Positions 19,010 to 21,815 of a stretch of 64,000 nt of DNA are shown piece after piece. Position numbers and translations under genes: made by a program. Under the pieces are notes generated by a model. That model saw only the letters and a list, made by a program, of their open reading frames with translations, made no database searches and was not told the origin of the DNA. Source of the stretch: Kitasatospora phosalacinea (GTDB lineage Bacteria > Actinomycetota > Actinomycetes > Streptomycetales > Streptomycetaceae); assembly GCF_000716545.1 (NCBI RefSeq), contig NZ_JNWZ01000054.1, forward strand, positions 1-64,000. The letters are read 5' to 3'. Positions within the stretch are counted from its first letter, which is position 1. The number at the start of each line of letters is the position of its first letter.

Positions 19010-19324
19010 TCAGTGCAGCGCCTTCAGCCCGACCACCCCGGACAGGATCAGCACCAGGCAGGTGATCCGGGCCGCGCTCGCCGCGTCCCCCATCGCCGCC
19101 ATCCCGTACAACGCGGTGCCCACCGCGCCGATGCCCACCCACACCGCGTACCCCGTACCCAGCGGGATCGACCGCATCGCGTACGCCAGACCACCCATCG
19201 AGAGCGCCAGCGCCACCGCGAACACCACGCTCGGCACCAGCTTCGAGAACCCCTTGGACGCCTCCAGTGCCACCGCCCACACGGTCTCCAGCACTCCGGC
19301 GACGATCAGAACGACCCAGGCCAT
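19010..19324 (-). CDS. gdx: Guanidinium exporter Gdx (SugE-type SMR protein)
   Basis: A 104-residue small multidrug resistance protein with four transmembrane helices. The active-site Glu lies in the first helix (VLIVAGVLETVWAVALEAS, E13). The Gdx/SugE subgroup exports guanidinium in exchange for protons, and the riboswitch 37 bases upstream strongly supports this substrate. ATG 19324 is preceded by GAAGGAG at good spacing. The family works as an antiparallel homodimer; the absence of a second SMR gene fits that. Confidence 0.93.
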   Translation of the reverse strand: MAWVVLIVAGVLETVWAVALEASKGFSKLVPSVVFAVALALSMGGLAYAMRSIPLGTGYAVWVGIGAVGTALYGMAAMGDAASAARITCLVLILSGVVGLKALH

Positions 19325-19361
19325 GACGACGGACTCCTTCGCAGTAGTCGAACCACCTACC

Positions 19362-19401
19362 GCGCCGTCTTGTCCTGCCGGGTACGACGCACCTCGTCCG
19401 G
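19362..19401 (-). promoter_or_regulatory. Guanidine-III (ykkC-III) riboswitch
   Basis: Read on the minus strand this 40-base element begins CCGGACGAGGTGCG, continues TCGTACCCGG and ends GGACAAGACGGCGC. It is almost identical to the Thermobifida fusca guanidine-III riboswitch as I recall it, differing by one C-to-U change that keeps a G-U pair in the pseudoknot helix and by one base fewer in a junction. Both conserved ACGA/ACGG motifs are present. It lies 37 bases before the gdx start, with the Shine-Dalgarno just beyond it. Class III switches usually turn translation on when guanidine binds. Confidence 0.95.
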
Positions 19402-19469
19402 GGGGCCGCGAACGACCGCCTCACTTCGAAGGTAACACGGCGCCGACACACGGAATTCACCGGCGAATA

Positions 19470-19500
19470 TTGACGCCGCCCCGCTTCCGCCCGCTATAGT
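19470..19500 (+). promoter_or_regulatory. Candidate sigma-70-type promoter of the Cys-peptide/tRNA-Cys unit
   Basis: TTGACG (19470-19475) and TATAGT (19495-19500) are close to consensus but 19 bases apart, longer than ideal. Transcription would start near 19507, about 45 bases before the small peptide gene. The divergent gdx transcript begins within about 100 bases on the other strand. Confidence 0.6.
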
Positions 19501-19550
19501 GAATTCACCGGAACGAACCGGCGCAGCCCTTACGGCGACAGGAGACGGCG

Positions 19551-19637
19551 ATGAACAGGAAGACGGTGGCCCTCGCGGCGCCCCGCACCTGTGCCCCCTG
19601 TCCCGGCTGCGCGTGTTCCTGTCGCTGTTGCGCCTGA
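19551..19637 (+). CDS. 28-residue cysteine-rich peptide upstream of tRNA-Cys
   Basis: A small gene too short for routine calling. ATG 19551 has AGGAGA at ideal spacing. The peptide starts MNRKTVALAAPR and then has Cys at 14, 17, 20, 22, 24, 26 and 27 of 28 residues, ending Ala-stop. Five of seven Cys codons are TGT, unusual for so GC-rich a genome, where TGC dominates. It lies between a promoter and the tRNA-Cys gene in the same orientation. Two readings are possible: a leader peptide whose translation senses Cys-tRNA supply (poly-Cys attenuator ORFs are known in mycobacteria), or a tiny metal- or thiol-active peptide. The first fits the neighbour better. Expression is not shown. Confidence 0.6.
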   Translation: MNRKTVALAAPRTCAPCPGCACSCRCCA

Positions 19638-19647
19638 GTCGCAGCCG
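19604..19647 (+). promoter_or_regulatory. RNA hairpin overlapping the Cys codons
   Basis: CGGCTGCG (19604-19611, covering Cys codon 20) pairs perfectly with CGCAGCCG (19640-19647, just past the stop). A ribosome stalled in the Cys run would block or release this stem. There is no T tract, so it is not a classical terminator. Confidence 0.4.
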
Positions 19648-19698
19648 CCCTTCTCCGCAGGCCCGTTGACGCCCGCCGTCCCGCCTCGCCCCACGCCT

Positions 19699-19773
19699 GA
19701 CCATGTGCCCGAGTGGCTTAGGGAACCGCCTGCAAAGCGGTTTACACGGGTTCGATTCCCGTCATGGTCTCCA
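19699..19773 (+). tRNA. tRNA-Cys (anticodon GCA), CCA encoded
   Basis: The cloverleaf can be drawn by hand. The acceptor GACCATG pairs with CATGGTC, the D-stem is CCC/GGG with a GG in the loop, and the anticodon stem ACCGC/GCGGT holds loop CTGCAAA (anticodon GCA). The T-stem is ACGGG/CCCGT with loop TTCGATT. The discriminator is T, as expected for Cys, and CCA is encoded. It reads UGC and UGU, the codons that fill the peptide gene 61 bases upstream. Confidence 0.97.
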
Positions 19774-19775
19774 CC

Positions 19776-19826
19776 CGGAATTCACCGGTCACCCCTCCTT
19801 CCCGGACGGGCGACCGGTGAATTCCG
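19776..19826 (+). terminator. Long hairpin directly after tRNA-Cys
   Basis: Perfect 15-base arms (19776-19790 and 19812-19826) with a 21-base loop begin two bases after the CCA end. The arms contain the GAATTCACCGG repeat. Likely a terminator or 3'-processing signal for the tRNA transcript, and it also protects against readthrough from the convergent type VII gene. Confidence 0.75.
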
Positions 19827-19957
19827 CTGCCGTTTTCCTTTTCCGTCGGCGTTATCGGATTTCCGACGGCCCCGGGAATTCCGGCCGTACGACGGCGGCG
19901 GGCGCCGGCGGCGGCCCCCCAGGACCACCGCCGGCGCCCGCCGGCCACCCCGTCCGC

Positions 19958-21484
19958 CTACTCGATGACGCCGGGGTTCGCCTCGCCACCGCGCCAGGTG
20001 TCCTCGTCCTCGACGAGGTAGTCCGGGCGGTTGCTCTGGTTCTTCTTCTTGCTGTTCGCACCGCCGGTGCCGCCGTGCATCCCGGCCGCGCCCGCCTGTC
20101 CGGCGGCGCGCCCCTTCCCGATGCCCGAACCGCCCTCGGTGAACGCCCGCGCACCGGCACCGCCGGCCTTGGCCCCGCCCACCGTGCCGCCGGCCTTGCG
20201 CACCAGGCCGCTGCCGCCGCTCTTGCCGCCGGCACCGCCCCGCGCGCCACCACCGGCACCGCCGTGCATGCCGCCCATCCCGCCGGCGCCCGCGGCCCCG
20301 CGGCCACCCGCGGCACTCGCGCCGCCGGCCCCCGCACCGCCGCCCGCACCGCCGGCGACACCGCGGCCCGCCGAACCCGTCGAGCCGGAGCCCGCCGTCC
20401 GACCGCCACCGGCACCGCCCGTCCCGGCCAGGCCGCCGCCGGTCACCCGGCCGCCACCGCCGAGACCGCCGCCACCGGGCACGTACCCGCTGCCGCCGAT
20501 CCCCGGCAGGTACCCGGCACCGCCGATCCCGCCGCCACCGCCGGCGCCACCGCCGCCGGAACCGACTCCGGGCAGCGTGCCGACGCCGCCGGGCGTCCCG
20601 ACACCGGGGCCGATCGGCACCCCCACCGAAGGCGGCAGGTCGATCCCGTCGATCCCCGTCCCCGGCGAGTGCACCGGAGGGAGCTGCCCGGGCGCGGGCA
20701 GGGTCGAGAGCGGGGGGACTCCGGGCAGCCCAGGCTGGTTCGGGATGCCCGGGAGGCCCGGGTGGTTGATCCCCGGCAGAGACTGACCCGGCTGCGTGGG
20801 CTGCGTCGGCTGCTGCGGCGGCACGCCCTCGGGGTACTTCGGGGTCGGCATGCTCGGCGGGGTGTGGCCGGGAGGCGCGACCGTGGTCGGCGGGTCCGGC
20901 GGGAAGTTCTGCGACGGCTCCGAGACACTGCCGTCACCCAGGAGCTTCACGGCCTCGATGTACTGCGGGCTCAGGTGCTCCATCACGCCGATCGCGTACT
21001 GGTGCGCGACCTCGGTGGCGGACAGGTCCTCCGCGTTCTTGTTGACCGCGTCGATCCGGTTCATGCCCGAGGCGAGGTCGCGCTTGAAGCCGGCGTCCGA
21101 GCTGGCGAAGCCGTCGGACAGGGTCTTGCCGACCCGGTCCATGAAGCTCGGGACCTTGATCCGGTCCATGGTCGACTTGGTCTGCTCCAGGGCCTCCCCC
21201 GCGTAGTTCATCGCGACGGACGTGTTCTGCGCGTGCGCGGCGGTGGCGGTCATGCCCTGCTGGATCTGCGCGCCCTTCGCCGCGAAGCCCTGCGCGGCGG
21301 CGCCCGTCCAGTTCGCGGTGGCGTGCTCGATCGCCGCCTGGAGATCCGCGGCCGCCTGCATCAGCTCCTGGTGCACGTTCTGCCAGTGCTGCCCGACTTC
21401 CTTGATCAGTCCGGGATTCGAGCCGCTGACCATGTTCTTGAGCGGGATCAGGGCGTAGTTGTCGAACTGAGTCCTCTGGGCCAT
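19958..21484 (-). CDS. WXG100-fold, Gly-rich type VII secretion substrate
   Basis: A 508-residue protein. Residues about 1-190 are helical with a W-x-G turn at 59-61 (ATANWTGAAAQGF), as in WXG100/PPE-like ESX substrates. A Pro-rich region (about 195-290) and a long Gly/Ala-rich tail (about 300-470) follow. The end has a basic patch (SKKKNQSNRPD) and the motif YLVED, which fits the Y-x-x-x-D/E type VII export signal. It is next to a WXG100-like partner and a mycosin. I infer export through an ESX-type system encoded elsewhere. The function outside the cell is unknown. Confidence 0.85.
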   Translation of the reverse strand: MAQRTQFDNYALIPLKNMVSGSNPGLIKEVGQHWQNVHQELMQAAADLQAAIEHATANWTGAAAQGFAAKGAQIQQGMTATAAHAQNTSVAMNYAGEALEQTKSTMDRIKVPSFMDRVGKTLSDGFASSDAGFKRDLASGMNRIDAVNKNAEDLSATEVAHQYAIGVMEHLSPQYIEAVKLLGDGSVSEPSQNFPPDPPTTVAPPGHTPPSMPTPKYPEGVPPQQPTQPTQPGQSLPGINHPGLPGIPNQPGLPGVPPLSTLPAPGQLPPVHSPGTGIDGIDLPPSVGVPIGPGVGTPGGVGTLPGVGSGGGGAGGGGGIGGAGYLPGIGGSGYVPGGGGLGGGGRVTGGGLAGTGGAGGGRTAGSGSTGSAGRGVAGGAGGGAGAGGASAAGGRGAAGAGGMGGMHGGAGGGARGGAGGKSGGSGLVRKAGGTVGGAKAGGAGARAFTEGGSGIGKGRAAGQAGAAGMHGGTGGANSKKKNQSNRPDYLVEDEDTWRGGEANPGVIE

Positions 21485-21491
21485 CTCTGAC

Positions 21492-21815
21492 TCACCTCGC
21501 CTGGATCTGGGTCATGGTCGCCTGGCCGTCGTCCTCGCGGCCCACGTAACGGTCGTGGACGAGCTGGGTCTTGTCGCCGTACTCGTTGATGAGCGCGTCG
21601 ATGGACGAGATCGTCTGCGTCAGGAACGCCTGCATGTTCCCGTGCGCGGCGTACAGCGCCCGGGCTTCGGCGAAGTTGCCGCCGAAGGCGTCCGGAGTGA
21701 TGTCTGTCTTGTACTTGGTGTTCGTCCCGCAGGTGCTGATGTTCTGCTGGAGGGCCCGCAGTCGCTTGACGACTGCCTCCAGCTCTGCAGGGTTCACGCT
21801 GTATCCGTCGGACAC
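21492..21815 (-). CDS. Small WXG100-like (ESX-associated) protein
   Basis: A 107-residue helical protein (NPAELEAVVKRLRALQQNI ... ISSIDALINEYGDKTQLVHDRYV) with the size and helix-turn-helix layout of ESX-secreted small partners. The turn lacks a clear W-x-G (AFGGNFAEARALYAAHG), so it may belong to a related subfamily. YVGRE near the C-terminus fits a Y-x-x-x-E export signal. It precedes the Gly-rich substrate by only seven bases, so the two are probably co-translated and may form a heterodimer. Confidence 0.8.
   Translation of the reverse strand: MSDGYSVNPAELEAVVKRLRALQQNISTCGTNTKYKTDITPDAFGGNFAEARALYAAHGNMQAFLTQTISSIDALINEYGDKTQLVHDRYVGREDDGQATMTQIQAR

Follow-up and report, generated by a model that had tools for sequence, protein, structure and literature searches.

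The window (the whole stretch of 64,000 nucleotides of Kitasatospora phosalacinea DNA that was analysed) contains a small unit in which a promoter, a short open reading frame (ORF) rich in cysteine codons, a tRNA-Cys(GCA) gene and a long hairpin follow one another on the same strand. The features of the unit are listed below, together with the kind of evidence on which each of them is based.

19470-19500 (+): promoter, TTGACG (19470-19475), 19-nt spacer, TATAGT (19495-19500); comparison with relatives
19501-19509 (+): GAATTCACC, directly 3' of the -10 hexamer; promoter comparison
19540-19544 (+): Shine-Dalgarno (SD) sequence AGGAG of the leader ORF; sequence and relatives
19551-19637 (+): leader ORF of 28 codons, seven of them Cys codons (five TGT), with TGA stop; sequence and comparison
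19590-19631 (+): Cys-codon stretch, TGT at 19590, 19599, 19614, 19620 and 19626, TGC at 19608 and 19629
19627-19645 (+): small hairpin around the stop codon, GTTGCG/CGCAGC
19638-19698 (+): spacer of 61 nt from stop codon to tRNA, C-rich, candidate Rho-loading stretch
19699-19773 (+): tRNA-Cys(GCA), CCA encoded; ARAGORN and Rfam
19776-19826 (+): long GC-rich hairpin with T-rich tail; folding against shuffles

A preliminary description made from the sequence alone had proposed most of these elements, and they were borne out. The sigma-70-like promoter TTGACG-19-TATAGT is backed by the related loci: upstream of the ORF a hexamer of the TTGA(C/G) type is followed by a -10-like one in 58 of 59 ORF-bearing loci (spacer 19 nt in 40, 18 in 13 and 17 in 5; no promoter was found in L015), and in the promoter comparison GAATTCA comes right after the -10 hexamer in 42/58 ORF-bearing and 16/18 ORF-less rows. 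This promoter was missed by a generic sigma-70 scan of the window, which admits spacers of 16-18 only. Transcription of the unit would start near 19507. The 28-codon ORF with its SD sequence and its 5 TGT and 2 TGC codons was recovered as described; its peptide is MNRKTVALAAPRTCAPCPGCACSCRCCA, and in many relatives the SD sequence is part of a wider block, CGACAGGAG. The tRNA was identified as tRNA-Cys(GCA) by both ARAGORN and Rfam, and in the region 19430-19850 it is the only Rfam covariance model match that reaches the gathering score: no T-box or riboswitch was matched there, and four sub-threshold matches fall on the downstream hairpin. The latter is real (-39.2 kcal/mol, z = -7.3) and is the probable terminator of the tRNA unit. 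By eye, similar hairpins follow the tRNA in many relatives, the ORF-less ones included.

The genome of the window has three tRNA-Cys genes by ARAGORN in the parts read. The leader-bearing copy is distinct from the one in a Gly-Cys-Val cluster (L002), and the third (L004; G000 contig 44, 82830-82900, minus strand) is a degenerate-looking tRNA-Cys-like gene whose anticodon arm is altered and whose Rfam score is lower (45 bits); it is possibly decaying. Several features of the surroundings may be mentioned. The element GAATTCAC or GAATTTAC is, by eye, repeated upstream of the -35 and after the -10 hexamer in many Kitasatospora loci; in the window it is found at 19452-19461, at 19501-19509 and also within the hairpin 19776-19826, and it may be a putative operator for a regulator. 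Divergent from the tRNA unit, a Guanidine-III riboswitch (19359-19422, minus strand) lies ahead of a small multidrug resistance family gene (19010-19324, minus strand), which we take to be a likely guanidine exporter, and, by eye, many ORF-less tRNA-Cys genes of Kitasatospora also have a riboswitch-like sequence upstream. Convergent with the unit, at 19958-21815 (minus strand), are a gene for a PPE/WXG100-like protein and a small neighbour that has no Pfam match; the two resemble a type VII secretion substrate pair.

Distribution of the leader ORF

The leader-bearing tRNA-Cys copy has a match in all 70 Kitasatospora genomes searched, one of them decayed (L069). All 70 loci were read, and a Cys-codon ORF with an SD sequence stands between promoter and tRNA in 51 of them; 47 of these ORFs have at least three Cys codons, those of L051, L052 and L054 have two and that of L053 has one. 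Beyond the genus, the search covered 227 genomes of the family, and 76 loci were read among the matches listed (G283, with a match at a contig edge, was omitted). Among the 13 loci of the Streptacidiphilus group, which holds Streptacidiphilus carbonis, 6 have the ORF, as do both loci of the group of Peterkaempfera griseoplana. The ORF is absent from all 61 other family loci read, mostly from a group (g10) taken to be Streptomyces, and from all nine named Streptomyces loci. Five ORFs seen among the 61 (two long ones with at least three Cys, three with two Cys) look like chance occurrences.

The set of ORFs used below was obtained from 60 loci listed by an automatic finder, from which three two-Cys ORFs were dropped as chance (L135, L150, L163); two were corrected by hand (L053, L105) and two added (L030, L113), giving 59 ORFs. 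The Streptacidiphilus-group locus L119, in which Cys codons stand in a row but the frame is broken from the conserved start, is outside all counts, and L002-L004 are outside the ORF count as other tRNA-Cys genes of the window's genome or a duplicate locus. In two loci a single leader is followed by tandem tRNA-Cys genes, three in L051 (G068) and two in L117 (Peterkaempfera griseoplana).

The homologous loci might, as the preliminary description allowed, have lacked the ORF or shown random substitutions in it; instead, many keep the ORF, the SD sequence and the Cys codons, while 19 of the 70 Kitasatospora loci are ORF-less. Since 18 of these 19 keep a tRNA-Cys called by ARAGORN and the remaining locus is decayed, the leader is evidently dispensable. 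The exception, L069, has a tRNA-Cys copy with damaged arms, no ARAGORN call and no leader ORF, and is apparently a decayed copy of the leader/tRNA-Cys locus; it is counted as ORF-less in the figure of 51 out of 70 and excluded from the 18 rows of the promoter comparison. Judged from these sequences, loss of the leader by deletion in some Kitasatospora appears more likely than repeated gain, because related genera carry the ORF.

Wider searches gave little. When 394 genomes of the class were scanned with a pattern, a weak test as the pattern misses CCCGAGTGG tRNAs and gave no match to the window's own genome, matches were obtained in 147, and those listed look by eye like chance coding matches. 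In a contig scan of at least 120 loci, six with a leader were found among the matches listed (L182, L217, L219, L224, L267, L271), where most other loci were not tRNA-Cys. A search of plasmids found nothing.

Codon use in the leader ORF

The Cys codons of the leader are tied to the reading frame. Across the 59 ORFs, 220 TGT are found in frame as opposed to 1 and 0 in the other two frames; for TGY the counts are 311 as opposed to 8 and 32. Cysteine makes up 311 of the 1502 residues after the start, i.e. about a fifth, compared with 1% in a reference set of 52 window ORFs (at least 150 codons, GC3 > 0.88; some may be spurious frames). The rarity of TGT, which the preliminary description had pointed out, is confirmed by the same reference set: TGT accounts for 71% of the Cys codons in the leader ORFs and for 3% (6/209) in the window ORFs (TGT:TGC 220:91 versus 6:203; Fisher p = 2e-62, which is nominal as the sequences are related). 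TGT outnumbers TGC in 52 of the 59 loci. The last Cys codon is an exception, with 22 TGT and 37 TGC; at this place a small hairpin extends over the stop codon in much of the core group.

The other codons of the leader ORFs end in G or C in 1103 of 1184 cases (93%), and in 135 of 137 cases in the two-fold families. Because they stay G/C-ending, selection acts on the Cys codon itself and not through a general drop in G+C. This bears on the idea that TGT serves a translation-linked insulation, i.e. that it keeps the RNA unstructured or pyrimidine-rich and that the Cys level is not sensed. TGT does lower the G+C content, and the commonest context of the Cys codons is CC-TGT (112/311), but such insulation would leave the lack of a third-position push towards A or T in the other codons unaccounted for, as it would the fact that it is the Cys codons that are multiplied; we regard it as improbable. 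Pairing of CCTGT with an ACAGG in the SD sequence was considered as a cause of the TGT preference and was rejected, as the preference is equally strong where ACAGG is lacking (TGT:TGC 75:22 in 23 loci without it, 145:69 in 36 loci with it).

Conservation points in the same direction. In each of 16 close pairs chosen by hand, the ORF shows greater similarity than the spacer; it is not the sole conserved part, as the 45 nt upstream of it surpass the ORF in similarity in 5 of these pairs. Cys residues are retained at 0.89 as compared with 0.60 for other residues (1013 pairs, aligned with BLOSUM62, which favours Cys matches). That the ORF lies beside the tRNA by chance can be regarded as refuted: the frame-specific TGT counts, the greater likeness of the ORF in every one of the chosen pairs and its presence in three genus-level groups all speak against it. 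It is thus almost certain that the leader ORF is real and under selection, and its SD sequence and conservation suggest that it is translated.

The ORFs are 12-39 aa long, contain 1-9 Cys and have N-termini that differ between clades, which is hard to reconcile with a small Cys-rich peptide (a metal or redox binder, or a precursor peptide) being the point of the locus and the extra tRNA-Cys a help to its translation. The N-terminus MNRKT/MDRKT is conserved within one clade, the Cys content can be high, and two weak, sub-cut-off NCBIfam matches to Cys-rich or thiazolyl precursor peptides were obtained (E = 0.37 and 5.1); on the other hand, none of seven peptides tried had an NCBIfam match above the cut-off, no modifying enzyme was found among four neighbouring proteins scanned, and the selection is seen at the level of the codon TGT, for which a peptide function gives no reason. 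We therefore give a peptide product little credence.

Among the tRNA genes examined in the genome of the window, the arrangement is specific to this tRNA-Cys gene. Of 68 distinct tRNA genes examined, 25 have an SD-bearing short ORF within 250 nt upstream, and only the one at this tRNA-Cys is a cognate-rich leader ORF: the share of cognate codons is 30% Cys in the best-scoring start, followed by 14% Ala in an ORF upstream of a tRNA-Ala. This survey was built on ARAGORN calls, one of which falls within an MFS gene, and the stretch upstream was short in some cases. A genome search for other Cys/TGT leaders gave 302 matches, and the readings given here rest on the matches listed. One candidate, a TGTTGTGCC repeat on contig 9, was rejected, as the opposite and probably coding strand reads there as an Ala-Gln repeat. 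In the surroundings of cysS and cysH the only short ORF (8-60 codons) seen to contain at least four Cys lies on the strand opposite cysS. A leader-like ORF of the same genome, MSSAGTTLVGRLHVDLLRVSSAICPVT (L378, 1735-1818, plus strand), has one TGT Cys near its end and lies upstream of a probable sulfite reductase/cysH operon, presumed to be one from its gene order; it is a different sort of sulfur leader from that of tRNA-Cys.

Transcript, RNA structure and spacer

The preliminary description had named a promoter of the tRNA's own after 19637, with no joint transcript, as a finding that would speak against it. In 16 of the 18 ORF-less Kitasatospora loci the tRNA starts 9 nt after the -10 hexamer of a like promoter, and in 15 of these 16 it is directly preceded by GAATTCACT. 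As the like promoter abuts the tRNA in these relatives, the ORF lies within the tRNA's own transcription unit, and the two most likely form part of a single RNA, as far as can be judged from sequence. No promoter-like site was found between ORF and tRNA in the window scan, a weak test; it is the comparison, not the scan, that carries this point, because the same scan also missed the real promoter with its 19-nt spacer. The near-leaderless tRNA-Cys genes are those of L049, L050, L056-L062, L064, L065, L067, L068 and L071-L073, and their precursors would have a 5' leader of 2-3 nt.

An RNA stem overlapping the Cys codons, also proposed at the outset, is present and strong in the window: the SD region pairs with the Cys codons in 13 pairs counting G-U (ACGGCGACAGGAG with TTCCTGTCGCTGT), and the stem scored above 100 of 100 codon-order shuffles. 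It is not a general property, since it beats such shuffles at 5% in 10 of 59 loci, the window's included. An unusually stable leader structure was rejected, as the window leader as a whole folds like its dinucleotide shuffles (z = 0.46). The small stop-codon hairpin has its like in much of the core Kitasatospora group and is weak or absent in distant members. It beats shuffled 3' arms at 5% in 11 of 59 loci, the window's (0.13) not among them, and when arms were exchanged between loci the native ones came out ahead in all 200 trials, a result inflated by relatedness. No universal alternative leader structure was found among the relatives.

Compared with an amino-acid attenuator, the locus has a short leader ORF in which codons of the regulatory amino acid are enriched, a downstream gene concerned with the same amino acid and, by the promoter comparison, both on the same transcript. 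Mutually exclusive antiterminator and terminator hairpins with a T-run before the gene were not found in the window, and neither was an intrinsic terminator between ORF and tRNA; as the leader also folds unremarkably, we do not count the locus among the classical intrinsic attenuators.

Upstream of the tRNA the RNA is rich in C and poor in G and as such compatible with Rho. C minus G is +0.22 in the 59 ORF-bearing loci and -0.01 for 65 other tRNA genes of the genome; the ORF-less loci are C-rich too (+0.15 in 59 loci outside the genus, +0.12 in 18 inside). In L051-L053 the spacer from stop codon to tRNA is only 10-12 nt, which is too short for Rho to act between the two, and these loci better fit a control over processing or over termination inside the tRNA.

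One reading that works at any spacer length, including these short ones, is that the leader affects how the tRNA precursor matures or how stable it is, and not transcription, the position of the ribosome altering RNase access or folding; Cys-tRNA may still be sensed in this way. The reduction of the leader to a few nt in 16 ORF-less relatives would suit it as well. Folding predictions lend it no help. The mean predicted pairing of the acceptor stem, 0.98 for the tRNA alone, drops to 0.25 when the leader is present and to 0.22 when a stalled ribosome is modelled. Shuffled leaders depress it further (0.13 versus 0.25, Wilcoxon p = 0.09), so that the effect is one of composition and not of design. 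A leader-tRNA misfolding switch was rejected for this reason, and an action on maturation, with no disturbance of the tRNA beyond that caused by shuffled leaders, seems to us rather unlikely.

A possible sensor of cysteine decoding

We think it probable, on the strength of the sequence comparisons, that the leader is a sensor of Cys decoding for the tRNA-Cys gene behind it. As the signature lies at the level of the codon TGT, decoding is a more plausible target than the peptide. TGT is read by the GCA anticodon through G-U wobble, which would make the run of TGT codons a sensitive place for stalling. When Cys-tRNA is short, ribosomes would slow down on these rare, wobble-read codons, and a ribosome held there could shield the C-rich RNA up to the tRNA, so that RNA polymerase would finish the tRNA. 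When Cys-tRNA is plentiful, ribosomes would come off at the TGA, and the C-rich RNA, then unprotected, would let Rho (or a nuclease) cut the output of tRNA. In this manner tRNA-Cys would feed back on its own production. Rho as the output device is a tentative suggestion, which we put forward with less confidence than the sensing itself. In tnaC of E. coli the position of the ribosome near the stop codon controls the access of Rho, and the peptide arrests with free tryptophan. The control suggested for the present leader would be analogous with respect to ribosome position and Rho, and different in that it would depend on codon hunger.

It is useful to compare the leader with known systems. Mycobacterial polycysteine leaders are reportedly leaderless, going by the title of a 2020 paper by Canestrari et al.; here there are 50 nt from the -10 hexamer to the ATG, an SD sequence, and a tRNA downstream instead of sulfur genes. 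According to passages of PMC4633059 and PMC1262725, the polycysteine leaders of mycobacterial cys operons are, like the present one, short ORFs of actinobacteria with Cys codons near the stop and no clear intrinsic terminator; the leaders treated in these passages precede genes of cysteine metabolism or other protein-coding genes, while ours precedes a tRNA gene and prefers TGT. A passage of PMC1262725 suggests Rho for the mycobacterial Cys leaders and names tnaC-type Rho-dependent attenuation as a model. The second relative is uORFC-8-2 upstream of cysS in Rhodobacterales, described in part of PMC8632094, which also has tandem Cys codons and an output that raises Cys-tRNA; as presented there, it differs in its target, a synthetase mRNA, in the dominance of UGC, in the intrinsic terminator of its model and in belonging to alphaproteobacteria. 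Thirdly, the leuS, trpS, alaS and thrS leaders of Streptomyces lividans, a member of the same bacterial family, are cognate-rich and control tRNA charging according to a section of PMC8079986. The eight leaders named in that section precede protein-coding genes, and none is given there as Cys-dependent or as lying before a tRNA gene.

We found no leader peptide described ahead of a tRNA gene in the open literature searched, subscription papers being mostly beyond reach. The output of bacterial tRNA genes is mostly ascribed to promoter strength, copy number and the stringent response. Our overall reading, towards which we lean with some reserve, is that a tRNA gene is here under ribosome-mediated feedback through chosen slow UGU codons, and that this may be the first amino-acid leader to target the tRNA itself; it would occur in Kitasatospora, Streptacidiphilus and Peterkaempfera, and some lineages seem to have lost it, so that their tRNA genes are now nearly leaderless. 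The retention of TGT amid G/C-ending codons offers a clean signature for seeking decoding sensors in GC-rich genomes, and the natural occurrence of leader-plus and leader-minus species in one genus, with a like promoter and tRNA, makes the question directly testable. If true, a leader that senses the decoding of its cognate codon and feeds back on a single tRNA gene would be a new way to match the supply of a tRNA to demand.
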